A program made the position numbers and the translations under genes. Below are positions 3,001 to 62,056 of a stretch of DNA of 63,056 nucleotides, piece after piece (position 1 is the first letter of the stretch; each line of letters starts with the position of its first letter). Origin of the DNA: a virus. The DNA is taken from positions 1-63,056 of IMG/VR virus record IMGVR_UViG_3300042509_002230. The stretch is one strand, 5' to 3'. The notes beneath the pieces were generated by a model. That model searched no databases. It saw nothing but the letters and a program-made list of their open reading frames with translations, and was not told the DNA's origin.

Positions 3001-5008
3001 CCAGACTGGCACATCTGTGTTTAAGTTATGTGATGAAATTACTGGAACTTCAATTTATGGAATTTCTCAGTCAAATGCAGAAACAGTATATGATACTTTA
3101 GGTGCAAGAGTTAGCTTAACCAGCAATGTAGTTTCATTACAAACCCCACAAATCACGTCTACACCCATCAGAGGAACTAGAACAGTCTTCATTCCAGATC
3201 CACCACCACCACCACCTGCAGGGGGAGGAGACCCAGTAGCACAGTCATTCTTTGTAGATTCTACTGGCGGAGTGTTTATATCTTCAATTGATCTATACTT
3301 CCAAACCAAAGATCCTTCAGTACCAGTCTCTGTAGAAATTAGAACTATGGAGAATGGAACACTCACAAATACTGTAGTTCCATATGGAGTTGCTGTCGTA
3401 GATGCATCTAATGTAAATGTTTCTAATAATGCTTCTGTAGCAACCAGATTTACTTTCCCATCATTGGTATATTTAAATCAAGACACATATTATGCATTTA
3501 TAGTTAGAAGTAATTCTAAACAATATAAAATGTGGATATCTAGACTTACTGAAAATGATGTATTAACTTCATTTATTATTGATAAACAACCATACTCTGG
3601 TTCATTATTTAAATCTCAGAATATGTCAACTTGGTCACCAGATCAATTTGAAGATGTTAAATTTGTATTAAATAGAGCTAAATTTATTACAAATACTACA
3701 TATAACTGCAAGTTAAATAACGATCCTGTTCCAGATGCAGTATTAAATCCAGACTCTCTATCATTCACAGATAACTCTGCAACTATTGAAGTATATCATC
3801 CAAATCATTGCATGAACAGTATACAAAATTATGTTAAACTATCTTCTGTTATGTCAGATGCTCCAGATACTAGTTTAAATACTGCAATCACTACCGCATC
3901 ACAAACTGGAAATATTACTGTTGGCAATGCAAGTGCTACTACTTGGGGAACTATCAATAAACTTCCAGTATCTCCAACAAATCCTGGATTTGTATTAATC
4001 AATAATGAAATTATTAAATACACTGGTATTTCTGGAAATACACTTACTATCTCTGAAAGAGGAGTTTCTGGCAGTGTAGCAGCAACACATGCAATTGGTT
4101 CTAGTGTAAAATGCTATTCAATTAATGGAATTCCATTAACACAAATTAATAAAGTACATCAAATCACTCAAGTGGTTGATTTGGATAGATATAAAATTGC
4201 AGCAACCACTAATGCAAATTCCACTATTATTGCTGGGGGAAATTCTATAATTGCATCTAGAAATATTCAATATGAGGAATTATATCCAAATATTAATACT
4301 CTGGTGCTTCCTTCAACAGATTTATCATTTACATTTACAAGTGTTACTGGAAATAGCATTTATGCTGCACAATCCTCATTCTCTCAAATTAATGAAGAAT
4401 CTGTAGAAAATAAGCAGTATTGCGAAATGACTACACCTAGATTGGTTGTTTCATCTGCAAATAATTCAATTTATTTCCCATCTAATCCATCATCACTAAT
4501 ATTTAATTTGAGAATGTCTACTGAAATTGATAACATCAGTCCTGTAGTAGATGTAATTGGGTCATCAGCAATTACTGTATGCAATAGAATTAGCAAAAAA
4601 ATTCTTAATGATGTTGTAGATATTTCTGCAGAATTGACTCCAAATTCTGGTAAATATTCATCATATATTACTAAAAAAGTTACCTTACAAAATACTTCGA
4701 CTGCAATTAAAGTTCTTTTAGATGGTATTAGAAAACAAGGTTTGAATGGAGACTATTCTGAGATTAAGGTATTTGTTAAAATAAATGGTGATGGAAACCT
4801 AGGCTCATTTGATGATATGAATTATATTGAATTGCCTCCAATTTCATATCCAACTTCAGTGAATTCATCTGACTACAGAGCATTTGAGTTTGAAGTAAAG
4901 AATTTACCGGAGTTTAAAGAATACTCAATTAAGGTATGTATGATTAGTGCAGATCAAACTAATGTTCCAAAAATTAGAAACTTCAGAGCAATTGCATTAG
5001 CAGTATGA
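2..5008 (+). CDS. Large virion structural protein (5' end outside window)
   Basis: The reading frame is open from the window edge, so the true start lies upstream; the GTG at 131 is only an internal codon. About 1,668 residues are visible. The protein is rich in Thr, Ser, Asn and beta-strand patterns with no membrane segment. A polyproline linker (about nt 3200-3225) separates the long N-terminal part from a C-terminal part that begins with PVAQSFFVD. A segment near nt 1855-1960 (RRYTMKDIGSIDKRLETVE) resembles the DUF4815 region of large cyanophage virion proteins. It is probably a baseplate or fibre-associated adhesin. Its stop overlaps the next start (ATGA), so the two are translationally coupled. 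The exact role is unknown. Confidence 0.75.
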   Translation, partial: TTNSVETQIGKARVLSLTAEERLFVADLTLFTTITTAQSTPTVVIGDFVFSTNGSQGIVESISGNTIVLSQISGQFLSGATIANSRDSNTYTISSVENNKIENVTNVKTASGFSASLALTQVAISGSSFVINNNILTGTGTSFLQDLKVPMKLLVGSSTVTVSAVSSDSSVTVTGTVANGTYYNVKKLVPKLSSFGNNFFVKFSNEFIKSSSDMSYYKTITENKVVTSGTVTISTTSDYTISASNIIITNASGTVAFTPTVVSATNVNLAVSTSLNGTSVNVVYKVRVNNPTIKIKSSNKFNFLSVDKVKNLTNLVYGTRISDKDISLKFSDVYRVHAIHEALSPTDTNQSMFDSLVINNASDLTVGDIIRYENIKAKIISISGTTLYVVYLSSEKFIQGTSLALSVDIISSTLITGRYITTSTHGRYKDITTNYALVKNDNAEFYNISKLVRIENRPTPTNKFIVVFDYYNHANTSNDFYSTNSYNVSEVDYALIPNTYEGTPYTDIVDFRYETVPSTGTGGTLSTPYQETNSALNYYSLTRSISNFVFPGEIVSADYDYYLGRIDKIFLDENGNLVAIKGSETNTPQVPENIQNALLLATVNIPPYMKTVSSASLNIEQSRRYTMKDIGSIDKRLETVETLTSLNLLEIGTNSLSIVDEDGNNRFKTGFIADNFKTTNLADFNNIQYTASIDTDNALVRPYPYVNNVNLNYDSANSTTTKTGSLVTLPYDEVAYISQIYASRVENLQPFEVIAWNGELVLSPNKDVWFDTIRTQRETQQIDLSEPIRFLFDNSGASGEQWGAWNSTGSARTGGGTNVFQQRTGVDNTFSTLTQEIQVGDSINSIGTEEFVRSRIVNVVASKLKPNTLFHFFVDDALNDSMIFPKNITGMTNRTGTFVIGETVTLRPTLASTVQGANVITATVIADDLGSYSSTSTYLSIDNILTIDGSNINPVILGSTFVISGNSSGAIGTLTLTSPRVKTDSFGVLNAFLIIPPQTYQTGTSVFKLCDEITGTSIYGISQSNAETVYDTLGARVSLTSNVVSLQTPQITSTPIRGTRTVFIPDPPPPPPAGGGDPVAQSFFVDSTGGVFISSIDLYFQTKDPSVPVSVEIRTMENGTLTNTVVPYGVAVVDASNVNVSNNASVATRFTFPSLVYLNQDTYYAFIVRSNSKQYKMWISRLTENDVLTSFIIDKQPYSGSLFKSQNMSTWSPDQFEDVKFVLNRAKFITNTTYNCKLNNDPVPDAVLNPDSLSFTDNSATIEVYHPNHCMNSIQNYVKLSSVMSDAPDTSLNTAITTASQTGNITVGNASATTWGTINKLPVSPTNPGFVLINNEIIKYTGISGNTLTISERGVSGSVAATHAIGSSVKCYSINGIPLTQINKVHQITQVVDLDRYKIAATTNANSTIIAGGNSIIASRNIQYEELYPNINTLVLPSTDLSFTFTSVTGNSIYAAQSSFSQINEESVENKQYCEMTTPRLVVSSANNSIYFPSNPSSLIFNLRMSTEIDNISPVVDVIGSSAITVCNRISKKILNDVVDISAELTPNSGKYSSYITKKVTLQNTSTAIKVLLDGIRKQGLNGDYSEIKVFVKINGDGNLGSFDDMNYIELPPISYPTSVNSSDYRAFEFEVKNLPEFKEYSIKVCMISADQTNVPKIRNFRAIALAV

Positions 5009-58026: not shown

Positions 58027-58055
58027 TTGACAACCAAATAGAAGTGTGTTAAGAT
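58027..58055 (+). promoter_or_regulatory. Sigma-70 promoter for the RNA / tRNA-Tyr unit
   Basis: TTGACA, 17-bp spacer, TAAGAT. Predicted initiation near 58,062 coincides with the base of the long stem that follows. Confidence 0.65.
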
Positions 58056-58061
58056 TGTCTT

Positions 58062-58168
58062 AAGTCTGAAGCCAGTAAACCTTTTGGCATCTCCGCCAAG
58101 AGTCCTGCTGGAAATATGTTACTCGCTATGCAGATAGCATAGAAGGAGGCATTACTGGTTTCAGGCTT
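58062..58168 (+). ncRNA. Candidate structured RNA with 17-bp closing stem
   Basis: 58,062-58,078 pairs with 58,152-58,168 over 17 continuous bp, two of them G-U. Inside are an 8-bp hairpin (58,081-58,102; one G-U), TCCT pairing with AGGA (58,103-106 / 58,144-147), and a perfect 6-bp hairpin (58,126-58,142). A promoter places initiation at the stem base and tRNA-Tyr starts 4 bases after it. There is no tRNA T-arm. Not an RNA class I recognise; T4 tRNA clusters also carry stable RNAs (C and D) of unknown function. Confidence 0.6.
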
Positions 58169-58171
58169 TTC

Positions 58172-58262
58172 GGGAAGGTGGCTACTGTTGGCAATATGTG
58201 TGGCTGCGGTCTGTAAAACCGTTACATAAGAACCATCGGGGGTTCAATTCCCTCCCTTCTCA
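58172..58262 (+). tRNA. tRNA-Tyr (GUA)
   Basis: Acceptor GGGAAGG / CCTTCTC; D stem GCTAC / GTGGC; anticodon stem GCGGT / ACCGT with loop CTGTAAA; long variable arm (class II); T arm GGGGG TTCAATT CCCTC. The 3' CCA is not encoded. Confidence 0.85.
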
Positions 58263-58382
58263 TTGGTAACACCAATTTATATTATAAGCGGTTGAGTGTT
58301 ATCATGTTGTGCCCAGGAAAGTGCCCTCCGAGAGGTTGGGTGTACCCCCTTTCTATTGGGATGTAGAGTTCTATTCAAATTA
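58263..58382 (+). other. Structured leader between tRNA-Tyr and rlpA-like gene
   Basis: Contains a 6-bp hairpin (ATTGGT / ACCAAT, 58,262-58,276) right after the tRNA and a small CCTC-CGA-GAGG hairpin near 58,324-58,334. No convincing gene; only a 20-codon frame. It may be a processing signal or rlpA leader. Confidence 0.4.
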
Positions 58383-58745
58383 ATGCGTTTTATTTCAACA
58401 CTTCTCATTGCTTCAACACTTCTTGGATTTACGCCCCAAAAAGCTGAAGCGGCCAGTGGATGTTCAATGGCTTCTCATTATGGTATCGGTGATGGATATC
58501 ACGGTCAAACCACCGCCAACGGTGAAAGATACAATGCATATGGTAAATCTGTAGCACATAAATGGCTTCCATTCGGAACTAGGTTACGGGTGACAAATCA
58601 ACGAAATGGAAGATCAGTTATTGTGCGAGTGAATGATAGAGGTCCATATGTCGGAGGACGAGACCTCGACCTGTCCTACGGGGCATTCTCTACTATTGCA
58701 TCTCCTGGACAGGGAGTGGTAAGTGTCTGTTACTCTAGAGCTTAA
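58383..58745 (+). CDS. Secreted RlpA-like double-psi barrel protein
   Basis: A 120-residue protein; ATG 58383 is preferred because it opens a clean signal peptide (RFISTLLIASTLLGF) with likely cleavage after AEA (about residue 23). The mature part is an RlpA-type double-psi beta-barrel: SHYGIGDGYHGQTTANGERY, AHKWLPFGTRLRVTNQRNGR and VNDRGPYVGGRDLDLS. RlpA proteins are lytic transglycosylases or glycan-binding proteins in the periplasm. Two Cys (27 and 116) could form a disulfide. A phage-coded exported wall enzyme could aid lysis. Confidence 0.82.
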   Translation: MRFISTLLIASTLLGFTPQKAEAASGCSMASHYGIGDGYHGQTTANGERYNAYGKSVAHKWLPFGTRLRVTNQRNGRSVIVRVNDRGPYVGGRDLDLSYGAFSTIASPGQGVVSVCYSRA

Positions 58746-58747
58746 CA

Positions 58748-58755
58748 GATAAATA
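58748..58755 (+). promoter_or_regulatory. Late promoter GATAAATA after rlpA-like gene
   Basis: NATAAATA octamer 2 bases after the stop, followed by a GGGGAG / CTCCCC hairpin (58,758-58,776) and ATG 58,786. Confidence 0.4.
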
Positions 58756-58785
58756 ATGGGGAGAGGTGATCTCCCCTTCCTCATG

Positions 58786-59181
58786 AATAAAAAGCAAGTA
58801 ATAAATTTTGCAATCATTGGTGTAATACTTACATCATCAGTAGGTGTACTTACAAAATGCACAGGGATTGATGAGATACATTGGTATGACCTGATTGACG
58901 AAATTCAAAGAAAGTATTTTCCAAATGGTCAATTAAACGACTATATAATACAGGACGACAAGCTTCTCAAGAGAAGAATCGAGAGAGATGTCGATAAAGC
59001 AATTAAAGATTATGAGGACTTGACAAACGACGATGGACGTGCTACGATACCATCACCACGATACTCAGTGAAACCGGTGGACTCCAGCGTGTGCTACACT
59101 GATGAGTGTCAAGCATTGGGAGGAGAGATCCGACTCTGTGCTCCATGGGTTCCAGACTGCCCCTTGACAAACCAAGACTAG
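58786..59181 (+). CDS. Membrane-anchored or exported small protein
   Basis: A 131-residue protein. ATG 58786 is tentatively chosen; ATG 58756 is the alternative but would translate through a GGGGAG/CTCCCC hairpin. Residues 6-24 (VINFAIIGVILTSSVGVLT) form a signal anchor, with Cys 26 in TKC which might be a lipobox-like site. The rest is charged, ending with four Cys (VCYTDECQALGGEIRLCAPW). An i-spanin or o-spanin-like lysis role is possible but not shown. Confidence 0.55.
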   Translation, partial: NKKQVINFAIIGVILTSSVGVLTKCTGIDEIHWYDLIDEIQRKYFPNGQLNDYIIQDDKLLKRRIERDVDKAIKDYEDLTNDDGRATIPSPRYSVKPVDSSVCYTDECQALGGEIRLCAPWVPDCPLTNQD

Positions 59182-59192
59182 TCTGCTACACT
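59164..59192 (+). promoter_or_regulatory. Sigma-70 promoter for the main tRNA cluster
   Basis: TTGACA, 17-bp spacer, TACACT, inside the last codons of the upstream gene; tRNA-Arg starts 12 bases later. Confidence 0.8.
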
Positions 59193-59204
59193 AAAAAGGT
59201 AATT

Positions 59205-59277
59205 GGGTTAGTAGTTCAGCGGATAGAACAACGCTCTTCTAAAGCGTGTGTCGCAGGTTCGATTCCTGCCTAACCCG
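59205..59277 (+). tRNA. tRNA-Arg (UCU)
   Basis: Acceptor GGGTTAG / CTAACCC; anticodon loop CTTCTAA gives UCU; T arm GCAGG TTCGATT CCTGC. CCA not encoded. Reads AGA codons, frequent in this AT-rich genome. Confidence 0.95.
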
Positions 59278-59306
59278 TGACAACTGAATAATTAAGGTAT
59301 GAATCA

Positions 59307-59561
59307 ATGTACAAAATCAGATGTAAAGATTGCAACATGGAGTTGCAAGTAACTGCTCCAAACAAAGGTCAGTCATGCAAGTGTCCCAATAGAGCTTACA
59401 TACGACTTGACAACAACGGATTGCCTGTTATAGTAGCTGAGGACATCAGCCAAGTTGAAATGGTAAGTGGATTTGTTAAACCAAAACAAAGACAACCCAT
59501 ATACGATCAAGTAGCTGTTCCTAAAAGAAAAGTTAGGAAATTAGATTACGAAGTTCGTTAA
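59307..59561 (+). CDS. Small zinc-ribbon-like protein
   Basis: An 84-residue protein with an N-terminal CKDCNMELQV and later CKCPNRAYIRL, a possible Cys4 zinc ribbon. The C-terminal half is basic (KPKQRQPIYD, VPKRKVRKLDYEVR). It lies between tRNA-Arg and tRNA-Leu. No known function. Confidence 0.6.
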   Translation: MYKIRCKDCNMELQVTAPNKGQSCKCPNRAYIRLDNNGLPVIVAEDISQVEMVSGFVKPKQRQPIYDQVAVPKRKVRKLDYEVR

Positions 59562-59569
59562 TTTATTTT

Positions 59570-59652
59570 GGGCGTATGGTGAAATTGGTAAACACAACTG
59601 ACTTAAAATCAGTCGGGCTTTGCCCTTGTCGGTTCAAGTCCGACTATGCCCA
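59570..59652 (+). tRNA. tRNA-Leu (UAA)
   Basis: Acceptor GGGCGTA / TATGCCC; anticodon stem ACTGA / TCAGT with loop CTTAAAA; class II variable arm; T arm GTCGG TTCAAGT CCGAC. Confidence 0.95.
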
Positions 59653-59656
59653 CCTC

Positions 59657-59728
59657 GGGAGTATAGCTTAATGGTTAGAGCGGGCTCCTTATAAGGGCTT
59701 AGTCTGGGTTCAACTCCCAGTATTCCCA
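59657..59728 (+). tRNA. tRNA-Ile (UAU)
   Basis: Acceptor GGGAGTA / TATTCCC; D arm GCTT / GAGC; anticodon loop CTTATAA gives UAU; T arm CTGGG TTCAACT CCCAG. The anticodon stem GGCTC / GGGCT has two G-T pairs. Reads AUA without needing lysidine. Confidence 0.85.
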
Positions 59729-59934
59729 TTGGAAATCGACGGGTTTCCAAAGAATGTGACAGAATAATCTTTGTGGTTACTCACGGGATAATGTAATAGA
59801 TTAGGGGTGGTGCCCGCTGTATCGTTGGGAAATCAAAGGTATAGAACTTCTCACCAAGAAGAATCTAGGTTCTGGAATACGGTTGTCAGTGTAACCTTCC
59901 AGTTGTGGGTATGACAGAATCCCACCATTCACCT
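59729..59934 (+). ncRNA. Unassigned structured RNA between tRNA-Ile and tRNA-Pro
   Basis: A 206-base gap with several hairpins: TTGGAAA / TTTCCAA (59,729-59,750), CTTCT / AGAAG, CTGGAA / TTCCAG enclosing GGTT / AACC, and GTGGG / CCCAC near the end. The word TGACAGAAT occurs at 59,757 and again at 59,912. No complete tRNA, no convincing ORF. Possibly a stable RNA. Confidence 0.4.
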
Positions 59935-60010
59935 CCGAATGTCGCCTAACTTGGTCATGGCACCTGCTTTGGGAGCAGGAATAATCTCGGTTCAAATCCG
60001 AGCATTCGGA
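59935..60010 (+). tRNA. tRNA-Pro (UGG)
   Basis: Acceptor CCGAATG / CATTCGG; anticodon stem CCTGC / GCAGG with loop TTTGGGA; T arm CTCGG TTCAAAT CCGAG. Confidence 0.95.
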
Positions 60011-60011
60011 C

Positions 60012-60168
60012 TTACCGTTAACAGAACTTTCCTTCTGACGGTAAAGACCACTAGTATATTATTCAACACAGACTACAATCGCCGTTGGTTAGTTTACTAG
60101 TTTGACGTTGAACTGCAAAGTCAGCATACGGATAGAGGTTAGGTCCCTGGTCTCACACCTAATCCATC
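60012..60168 (+). ncRNA. Unassigned structured RNA between tRNA-Pro and tRNA-Ala
   Basis: Hairpins in series: TTACCGT / ACGGTAA capped by CAGAA / TTCTG (60,012-60,044); ACTAGTA / TACTAGT (60,050-60,056 / 60,095-60,101) enclosing CAAC / GTTG; and GGTTAGG / CCTAATCC (60,137-60,165). It lacks a T-arm. Together with 59,729-59,934 it may form one or more stable RNAs. Confidence 0.4.
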
Positions 60169-60169
60169 T

Positions 60170-60240
60170 GGGGGATTAGTTTAGTGGTAAAACGGGTGCT
60201 TTGCAAGCATCAATCACCAGTTCGACTCTGGTATTCTCCA
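60170..60240 (+). tRNA. tRNA-Ala (UGC)
   Basis: Acceptor GGGGGAT / ATTCTCC (two G-U); D stem GTTT / AAAC; anticodon loop TTTGCAA gives UGC; T arm ACCAG TTCGACT CTGGT. Confidence 0.92.
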
Positions 60241-60259
60241 TTCCCTTTATATTATTACT

Positions 60260-60529
60260 ATGGGAGACTCAGTTAAGTATCAAATTGAAAAGGCTGAACA
60301 TGCACTTCGTTCTGCACTTGAACTAGGTGCTATGCATGAAGACCCATATACTCTTCATTCTATTGCAGAAGCTTTACAAAAGCTAGGTTACATTATTATC
60401 ATGAACAGAGTACAGACTCCAAAAGAAGATTTTAGTGTAGAAGGTGGTATTCCTTTTGCAACTAACTATGATGATATAATTACTTTTGGTGGTATTAATC
60501 CAAATCCAGAGATTAATTTTACTACCTAA
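60260..60529 (+). CDS. Small hypothetical protein between tRNAs
   Basis: An 89-residue protein with an N-terminal helical part (YQIEKAEHALRSALELGAMH) and a C-terminal loop-rich part (FATNYDDIITFGGINPNPEI). It lies between tRNA-Ala and tRNA-Gly. No family recognised and no clear Shine-Dalgarno. Confidence 0.5.
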   Translation: MGDSVKYQIEKAEHALRSALELGAMHEDPYTLHSIAEALQKLGYIIIMNRVQTPKEDFSVEGGIPFATNYDDIITFGGINPNPEINFTT

Positions 60530-60594
60530 ATAAAATCATCTACCTCTCAAGCCTATCTCGGGACGCCGAATGATGCTCAAACAGAGGGGTCCCT

Positions 60595-60665
60595 GCGAAT
60601 GTGGTGTAGCGGTAACATCCCATCCTTCCAAGTTGGTGTCACGGGTTCGATCCCCGTCATTCGCT
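60595..60665 (+). tRNA. tRNA-Gly (UCC)
   Basis: Acceptor GCGAATG / CATTCGC; anticodon loop CTTCCAA gives UCC; T arm ACGGG TTCGATC CCCGT. A GGGAC / GTCCC hairpin lies just upstream. Confidence 0.95.
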
Positions 60666-60686
60666 TCCTCACTATTTGAGGTTACT

Positions 60687-60845
60687 ATGTCACTTATCTC
60701 TCAAAAAGACAGAGAAATGGTTATTGAAGCACTTGAGTATTATATTCAAAGGCTTGAAGCTGACAATTGCACTGAAGCATCAATTTATGCGTTTAACACT
60801 CTCCTTAGATGGATAGAATTAGAACACTTTAAAAATGAAAATTAA
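60687..60845 (+). CDS. Small hypothetical protein
   Basis: A 52-residue helical protein; ATG 60687 (TGAGG upstream) is preferred over the frame that would start inside tRNA-Gly. It contains DREMVIEALEYYIQRLEADN and EASIYAFNTLLRWIELEHF, two amphipathic helices. It overlaps the next start by 11 bases. Unknown function. Confidence 0.5.
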   Translation: MSLISQKDREMVIEALEYYIQRLEADNCTEASIYAFNTLLRWIELEHFKNEN

Positions 60846-61017
60846 TCTTTGGTATTGTACTGAATTAAATCAATGGAGATGGACTCTAGTAGATGATCAT
60901 CGCCCAATAATTAAAATGGAGTCTGGTCAACAATCAGATCTTCGGGTAGCAATGAATGACATTGCAAACACTGTTGAATACATGTTAAATCATAATGATC
61001 CTACCTTACAATCTTAA
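60835..61017 (+). CDS. Small Trp-rich hypothetical protein
   Basis: A 60-residue protein starting 11 bases inside the previous gene. INLWYCTELNQWRWTLVDD has a cluster of aromatic residues in beta-strand spacing, then a helix ending YMLNHNDPTLQ. Overlaps the next gene by 23 bases, giving a run of coupled small genes. Unknown function. Confidence 0.5.
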   Translation: MKINLWYCTELNQWRWTLVDDHRPIIKMESGQQSDLRVAMNDIANTVEYMLNHNDPTLQS

Positions 61018-61513
61018 AGAAACATATTCAATTACTCCAAATACTGAAGCAGCAGATTTTCTTCAAAATGAAATACAGACTCATTTTGGATATATTCAAA
61101 AATCTAAAAGAGAAAAATATGCTGATGTTTGGATTTCTTCCAATGAAGGATTGAATGTTAAAACTGATAATTTGTTATCCCAACAAAATAAAGGTAGGTT
61201 ATGTACTGCAGAAGTAAATCAATGGCTGTTAAATCCTTCTAACAATTTAAAATTTCTTTTTATTGAATATACAAATGTTAATGGTCTTTTACAACTAATA
61301 AATACCAACGAAGTTTTTATTGAAGAAGTTTGTTACGAAATTTCTAATCAGGGTAGAGGACTTCTACAACCAAAAAGAACTTCTGAAGGAAAAGTTATTT
61401 TGCGTAATCGTATATCTCGTAATGAATGGATTGATGAATTTAAAATTAAATATTCTGAATTTGTTGATAAACAAATTAAACGATTTGAAAAGTACAAATT
61501 AGAATGGTGCTAA
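60995..61513 (+). CDS. Hypothetical protein, possible nuclease fold
   Basis: A 172-residue basic protein. ADVWISSNEGLNVKTDN (Asp then N-V-K about 11 residues later) and EEVCYEISNQGRGLLQPK are weakly like a PD-(D/E)XK restriction-type core, but no complete motif is secure. The C-terminal WIDEFKIKYSEFVDKQIKR is helical. It overlaps the previous gene by 23 bases and sits just before tRNA-Asn. Function unknown. Confidence 0.5.
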   Translation: MILPYNLKETYSITPNTEAADFLQNEIQTHFGYIQKSKREKYADVWISSNEGLNVKTDNLLSQQNKGRLCTAEVNQWLLNPSNNLKFLFIEYTNVNGLLQLINTNEVFIEEVCYEISNQGRGLLQPKRTSEGKVILRNRISRNEWIDEFKIKYSEFVDKQIKRFEKYKLEWC

Positions 61514-61519
61514 TTTCTT

Positions 61520-61591
61520 TGGGGTGTAGCTCAGCGGTAGAGCTATCGGCTGTTAACCGATTGGTCGCAGGTTCGATCCCTGCCGCCCCAG
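61520..61591 (+). tRNA. tRNA-Asn (GUU)
   Basis: Acceptor TGGGGTG / CGCCCCA; D arm GCTC / GAGC; anticodon loop CTGTTAA gives GUU; T arm GCAGG TTCGATC CCTGC. Followed by a TTGATAC / GTATCAA hairpin (61,592-61,610). Confidence 0.95.
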
Positions 61592-61721
61592 TTGATACAT
61601 TTTGTATCAAATGTAGGAACCAAAACCTCTTCCTGGTCACTGGCTGGGTAATGTAAAGAGGGAGGCTTAAGGTAATGCTCTCCCCTCCTACCACTAAATA
61701 TTTGTATCGAAGGATACAGTC

Positions 61722-61982
61722 ATGAAATACAAAATCTCATCAAAGTATTGTTTTTACAATAATGAAATTGTTGAGATGTATTTCATCAATAATGTTCCGT
61801 TTACATTTGAAGAACTTCCTCAAATAATGCAGGATGATCCTTACATTCAAATTGATGCTTCAAACAATGAAGAGTATAGTCCAGAAGATCTATACAAAAC
61901 TTCATTTTATTTAATTGATGAAGAATGTCATCCTTGCTTGTTTCCAGTGGACTTAGAAAATCCAGAAGATATGCCTGAATAA
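61722..61982 (+). CDS. Small acidic hypothetical protein
   Basis: An 86-residue acidic protein (EELPQIMQDDPYIQIDASN, then EEYSPEDLYKTSFYLIDEE). The ribosome-binding site AAGGA lies in a small hairpin (TGTATC / GATACA), which might modulate translation. Positioned between tRNA-Asn and tRNA-Thr. No family recognised. Confidence 0.5.
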   Translation: MKYKISSKYCFYNNEIVEMYFINNVPFTFEELPQIMQDDPYIQIDASNNEEYSPEDLYKTSFYLIDEECHPCLFPVDLENPEDMPE

Positions 61983-61985
61983 TTT

Positions 61986-62056
61986 GCCTCTAAAGCATTG
62001 TGGTGATGCACCGCTCTTGTAAAGCGGAGACGACAGTTCAATTCTGTCTAGGGGCT
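61986..62056 (+). tRNA. tRNA-Thr (UGU)
   Basis: Acceptor GCCTCTA / TAGGGGC (one T-G); anticodon stem CCGCT / AGCGG with loop CTTGTAA gives UGU; T arm GACAG TTCAATT CTGTC. Confidence 0.93.

Follow-up and report, generated by a model that had tools for sequence, protein, structure and literature searches.

What would a cyanophage gain from a promoter placed to drive a folded, non-coding RNA immediately ahead of its tRNA genes? The window analysed here is a whole virus record of 63 kb; the NrdA protein that it encodes shares 80% identity with the NrdA of Synechococcus phage S-CREM1, which marks the virus as a T4-like cyanophage. Nine tRNA genes extend from 58172 to 62056; a manA RNA separates two of them, and the promoter and RNA precede the first. 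A first-pass annotation of this locus had described a sigma-70 promoter, an RNA of unfamiliar class built on a 17-bp stem, and a context reminiscent of the stable RNAs C and D of phage T4. The promoter, the RNA with its parts and the tRNA that follows all lie on the + strand.

The promoter and structured RNA of the window

A promoter scan located TTGACA at 58027-58032 and TAAGAT at 58050-58055, separated by a 17-nt spacer and completed by a TG before the -10 box (extended -10), with 10 of 12 consensus matches. Every homolog keeps the promoter, even where the RNA is missing, and the 5' end of the transcript would lie at about 58062. The following 107 nt (58062-58168) fold with a minimum free energy (MFE) of -48.0 kcal/mol (z -6.01), and none of 200 shuffled sequences was equally stable. 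A scan of this RNA against Rfam 15 returned nothing at gathering scores or at relaxed E-values, in keeping with the unfamiliar class proposed earlier.

The covariance analysis suggested by the annotation upheld the stems, both in the core alignment described below and in nine distinct full-length homologs. In the latter, 96.4% of cells are paired, the long stem and the first hairpin together have five pairs with double compensatory changes, and covariation exceeded that of all 500 shuffles and of every slid control. The long stem, modelled by folding and covariation, joins 58062-58077 to 58153-58168 and has three pairs changed on both sides; it comprises 16 modelled pairs, the 17th of the original description competing with the inner helix. 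An 8-bp hairpin (58081-58102, with compensatory changes from UG to GC and from GC to AU) and a 6-bp hairpin, P3 (58126-58142, within the 40-nt core), are both present as described. The predicted TCCT/AGGA helix, on the other hand, was not retained: homologs pair the GAG of AAGGAG with a CUC beside the 6-bp hairpin, and the TCC pairs locally with GGA. The resulting small UCC-UGCU-GGA hairpin (58103-58112) is an MFE prediction whose pairs are invariant, so that covariation cannot be tested there. Display of a Shine-Dalgarno sequence (AAGGAGG) was considered as a role and rejected, as homologs read AAAGAC or AAGGCG at this place.

The tRNA gene occupies 58172-58262, just beyond the end of the RNA at 58168. 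ARAGORN miscalled it as Arg(gcg); when read from the sequence, the anticodon arm has a 5-bp stem and a 7-nt loop, CUGUAAA, which places the anticodon GTA at 58213-58215 and identifies tRNA-Tyr, as annotated. Taken at the level of sequence comparison, the window RNA is confirmed as real, structured and absent from earlier catalogues.

Relatives of the locus were collected with the upstream gene as bait and then by a pattern scan. The RNA lies at the same place in six of them (L002, L003, L004, L010, L012 and L024), whereas the promoter is followed by tRNA-Tyr without the RNA in L013, L018-L023 and L076, and by another tRNA without the RNA in L054 and L072. The pattern scan added L085, L088, L089 and L091, and L089 keeps the promoter and the window-type RNA with no tRNA after them. 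These patterns of presence and absence indicate that RNA and tRNA were gained or lost independently. A junction that is occupied in some relatives and empty in others is also what a mobile DNA repeat without function as RNA could leave behind, but such a repeat would hardly show compensatory changes in several helices, the RNA's scaffolds share no flanks, and most carrier records searched hold one or two copies matching the core model R1; we regard it as highly improbable.

A second conserved, covarying RNA structure lies at 58309-58361, between tRNA-Tyr and an RlpA/DPBB gene, with compensatory changes at 8 of 19 predicted pairs among 9 relatives. It has no Rfam match, kindred DNA occurs in S-CREM1 and DSL-LC03, and it is a candidate leader RNA.

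The conserved 40-nt core and its carriers

The unit outlined by the annotation is too large, and its important part is a 40-nt core (58115-58154). Model R1, a covariance model, has no other strong match in the window. It scores the core at 50.7 bits (E 8e-15); its weaker matches (57814, with 18 bits, and below) lie within a coding gene or score close to chance level, and their hairpin is incomplete. In a blastn search of the window RNA against named phages the core alone was matched, between tRNAs of Synechococcus phages DSL-LC02 and DSL-LC03. The core can be written G-[YUANGC]-AGAUA-[GCNUAR]-AAR; a 3-bp helix that covaries and an outer stem that is variable close it. In the window the outer helix P1 is formed by 58116-58119/58149-58152 and P2 (CUC/GAG) by 58122-58124/58146-58148, both with covariation over 66 sequences; the core alignment also defines P3 (58126-58131/58137-58142) and the loop AGAUA (58132-58136).

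Pattern scans placed the core in more than 100 distinct IMG/VR contexts, a lower bound, as are the other counts, since pattern-based sampling misses divergent members. To test each part without circularity, the parts of the pattern were released in turn. With the hairpin fixed and the flanks free, the flanks pair: P2 appears as CUC/GAG, GUC/GAC, UUC/GAA, GUU/GAC or CGC/GCG, and P1 varies freely in sequence yet pairs. A full P2 was found in 67 of 81 contexts among the matches listed, against a mean of 23 with shuffled 3' flanks; some of these contexts came from an earlier scan that fixed CUC/GAG, from which the other P2 types did not derive. Conversely, with P1 and P2 fixed and the hairpin free, the hairpin was recovered in 57 of 59 distinct contexts, with the loops AGAUA (32), ACAUA (12) and AGACA (6). 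The alignment of 66 core sequences has 91.9% paired cells, and the covariation of P1 and P2 reached 0.435 against 0.155 in shuffles (0/500) and at most 0.122 in slid controls; as its rows were picked for a complete P2, the shuffling of 3' flanks is the fairer test. Hairpin-like DNA missing a full P2 (L176, L185, L204, L242 and L244) was set aside as chance. By these comparisons, an RNA structure under selection with a conserved loop is shown.

Conservation within the core is strongest in the loop and upper stem, a feature that would suit an antisense or sponge RNA acting through loop-loop pairing with a complementary RNA. That reading is nevertheless given little probability, because loop positions 2 and 4 are variable and only 5-7 nucleotides are exposed.

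Named carriers of the core are the Synechococcus phages DSL-LC02 (two copies), DSL-LC03 and S-B05, and S-EIVl has a weaker match. For carrier contigs, hosts were inferred from whichever named isolate had the most similar protein; nearest proteins belong to S-CBP1 (a podovirus, 78%), S-CBS4 (65%), S-EIVl (60%) and also Kyanoviridae, with a more distant match to S-CBWM1 (partial, 53%). These nearest named phages represent unrelated lineages and have Synechococcus hosts throughout. The core is missing from the named relatives S-CBP1, S-CBS4, S-CBWM1, DSL-LC07, S-CREM1 and S-PM2. Exact-pattern scans of 84,980 bacterial species genomes, which divergent copies escape, gave no strict match and 11 chance-like relaxed ones.

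Two contigs (L125, at 3730-4140, and L098) have a longer conserved non-coding region round the core (GGGTG-core-AGCCC) with an additional motif, TGTAACAAGGAACGTTGCATTAAA, and no clear tRNA array; S-CREM1 and DSL-LC03 have part of the same region. In DSL-LC02 and DSL-LC03, the HNH genes near the core raised the possibility of an HNH-associated RNA (IscB/omega-like), which was discarded as these genes are short and a tRNA intervenes.

Placement beside tRNAs and resemblance to the anticodon arm

Most copies of the core are short forms that lie in tRNA arrays. The first paired base falls within 13 nt of the 3' end of a same-strand tRNA in 89 of 101 usable cases, and between -2 and +2 of that end in 88 of the 101, for a chance expectation of about 1.8%. 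The tRNAs that precede them have 14 different calls, among them Gly, Leu, Ser, Thr, Ile, Arg, Asn, Asp and Met. The window form is the exception, being located upstream of its tRNA and behind its own promoter. On this distribution the core RNA is not confined to the neighbourhood of tRNA-Tyr, and a leader specific to tRNA-Tyr was rejected given the diversity of these calls and the relative whose window-type RNA has no tRNA after it.

The flush position of short forms after tRNA 3' ends would be expected of an element of tRNA-array maturation, in which the hairpin would attract a nuclease (RNase E, III or Z) or block its access and would aid the processing or stability of neighbouring tRNAs. 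This explanation appears unlikely, however: the one or two copies per record contrast with many tRNA junctions, S-B05, S-EIVl, L098, L178, L188 and L191 carry the core with no tRNA nearby, and L089 again has the window-type RNA alone. It is likewise rather improbable, and a little more so, that the core acts in cis on the genes behind it, as a site on nascent RNA to which a transcription or translation factor of host or phage binds (put/nut-like antitermination or a repressor operator). The window copy does come first in a unit driven by a promoter, and a compact, conserved hairpin flanked by purines is what protein-binding RNAs typically show, but the downstream genes differ wholly between carriers, most copies are found in mid-array, and one would expect a tRNA-like scaffold to be excised and to persist as a stable RNA.

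Such scaffolds exist. ARAGORN calls L186, L187, L192 and L202 as tRNA-Ile(gat) of 68-69 nt whose anticodon arm is the core hairpin; the folds of L192 and L205 are cloverleaves that have the hairpin in that same position, and L192 scores 45 bits as tRNA (RF00005). A search that fixed only D-arm and T-arm elements found 15 distinct relatives with compensatory stem changes, the stems of these truncated tRNAs including CCAAG/CTTGG, TCATG/CATGG, CTGGA/TCCAG and CCAGG/CCTGG and their loops CAGAUAG, CUCAUAG, CAAAUAG, CAUAUAG and CUAAUAG. Many of the tRNA-like forms stand directly behind an abiF-type RNA (identified by Rfam in L187, by eye and a loose pattern in others).

Read as an anticodon arm, the hairpin has a 5-bp stem and a 7-nt loop, C-W-N-A-Y-A-G in most members. 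In tRNA numbering, position 35 is A, 36 a pyrimidine and 37 A, and positions 32 and 38 are C and G and able to pair. The pattern of the loop is thus of the Ile/fMet type (NAU), though mostly with A33 in place of U33. U33 is universal in anticodon loops; here it is confined to some tRNA-like variants. With A33 in most members and position 34 variable, the likeness to any particular tRNA is weak. A strict mimic of the GAU anticodon is also weakened as a candidate by the occurrence of the loops ACAUA, AGACA, UCAUA and AAAUA.

Could the core then be a divergent decoding tRNA, or the decaying relic of one? ARAGORN and Rfam do score some forms as tRNA, and a few loops (CUCAUAG) have U33. The window RNA and the short form have no RF00005 match, however, both missing D and T arms, A33 prevails, and the strong purifying selection and covariation rule out decay. 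A decoding tRNA or relic is accordingly very unlikely.

Known RNA families and a possible decoy role

The resemblance to T4 RNAs C and D holds in part. The T4 RNAs, of about 120-140 nt, lie beside a tRNA cluster, and rnaD starts 1 nt after tRNA-Arg, much as most short core forms are flush with a tRNA 3' end. In contrast, the window copy precedes its tRNA, model R1 reaches at best 9.6 bits in the T4 region (outside rnaC and rnaD and not above chance), and rnaD folds no better than its shuffles (z -0.83) where the window RNA departs strongly from them. The abiF RNA (RF03085) is also a small structured RNA adjoining tRNAs in cyanophage arrays, as in S-CREM1, and it adjoins a tRNA-like core form in L187, but its fold and sequence are other than those of the core, its protein partner is known (PMC12373285), and its model gave no match at E up to 10 to the window RNA or the short form. 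The manA RNA (RF01745) is similarly wedged between cyanophage tRNAs; it is about 200 nt long and unrelated in structure, and neither manA nor wcaG covariance models matched over the window RNA. We found no description of the core RNA in the open-access literature. Since the manA, wcaG, abiF and tRNA models miss the window RNA and R1 misses T4 rnaD, the core RNA is described here as a new family, outside T4 RNAs C and D, manA, abiF and tRNA, which may act like known RNA decoys.

The occurrence of the core in unrelated lineages that have Synechococcus hosts in common makes a trans-acting, host-directed role likelier than that of a tRNA leader or cis-regulator. We tentatively propose, with somewhat less than even confidence, that this non-coding RNA of Synechococcus phages serves as a decoy for a host factor that binds anticodon arms, for example an anticodon nuclease; a decoy for any given toxin class is less probable. 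The phage would present one anticodon-arm-like hairpin in differing scaffolds, namely a short stem cut from tRNA arrays, a truncated cloverleaf, or the four-helix, promoter-driven RNA of the window. The window RNA and its relatives would be transcribed, and host processing of tRNA ends (RNase Z/RNase P) would free the short forms. The RNA would then act in trans on a host target common to the carrier phages that binds Ile/fMet-type (NAU) anticodon arms, most likely an anticodon nuclease toxin (a VapC-like PIN or HEPN protein), which the hairpin would occupy.

The proposal draws on the likeness to an anticodon arm, the proximity of abiF RNAs, the orphan antitoxins of DSL-LC02 and precedents of mimicry, with the abiF and antitoxin-gene neighbourhood as circumstantial support. 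The abiF RNA belongs to a proven family of RNA antitoxins and neutralises the AbiF toxin (PMC12373285). The phage pseudo-ToxI RNA, a non-coding mimic of a host RNA that silences a toxin, is the model for the proposed action, although it consists of pseudoknot repeats mimicking ToxI (PMC3475682), where the core RNA has an anticodon-arm-like hairpin. Phage tRNAs with altered anticodon loops have been proposed to evade VapC, PrrC and colicins (PMC10264068); these were proposed as working tRNAs, whereas the short and window forms of the core are not tRNAs.

It is possible, though doubtful, that a widespread class of phage anticodon-arm decoys exists, as mini-stem, cloverleaf or four-helix RNA, released by tRNA processing and blocking host tRNA-cutting defence. 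If so, tRNA arrays would carry counter-defence RNAs (abiF and perhaps manA included) in addition to supplying tRNAs, and arrays in which tRNAs punctuate and release toxin-silencing small RNAs would amount to counter-defence cassettes. The core, absent from Rfam 15 and recurrent in viruses that are unrelated but share a host of major ecological importance, bears in this way on the old question of the purpose of phage tRNA arrays and T4-type stable RNAs. Because it is present in the isolates DSL-LC02, DSL-LC03 and S-B05, the decoy proposal is directly testable.

Several other elements of these arrays deserve mention. In DSL-LC02 (L092, 3641-3972), orphan antitoxin genes, PhdYeFM plus a MazE-like match near the cutoff, lie in the tRNA array just after the hairpin RNA and a tRNA-Pro. 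In the window, an abiF-like RNA with an enlarged loop (60543-60590; 29.9 bits, below the gathering score of 37) directly precedes tRNA-Gly, an arrangement also seen in S-CREM1. The manA RNA (59730-59935) takes up all of the interval from tRNA-Ile to tRNA-Pro, a placement more in line with a small RNA punctuated by tRNAs than with a regulator in a 5' UTR, and in S-CREM1 it is placed between tRNA-Leu and tRNA-Asn. Two further non-coding segments between tRNAs have apparent stems (60012-60168 and 61593-61720), the second including CTGGGTAATGTAA, which resembles the manA core. Finally, the tRNA-Pyl(cta) called by ARAGORN at 59204-59278 is better read as tRNA-Arg(TCT), with the stem ACGCT/AGCGT and the loop CTTCTAA.
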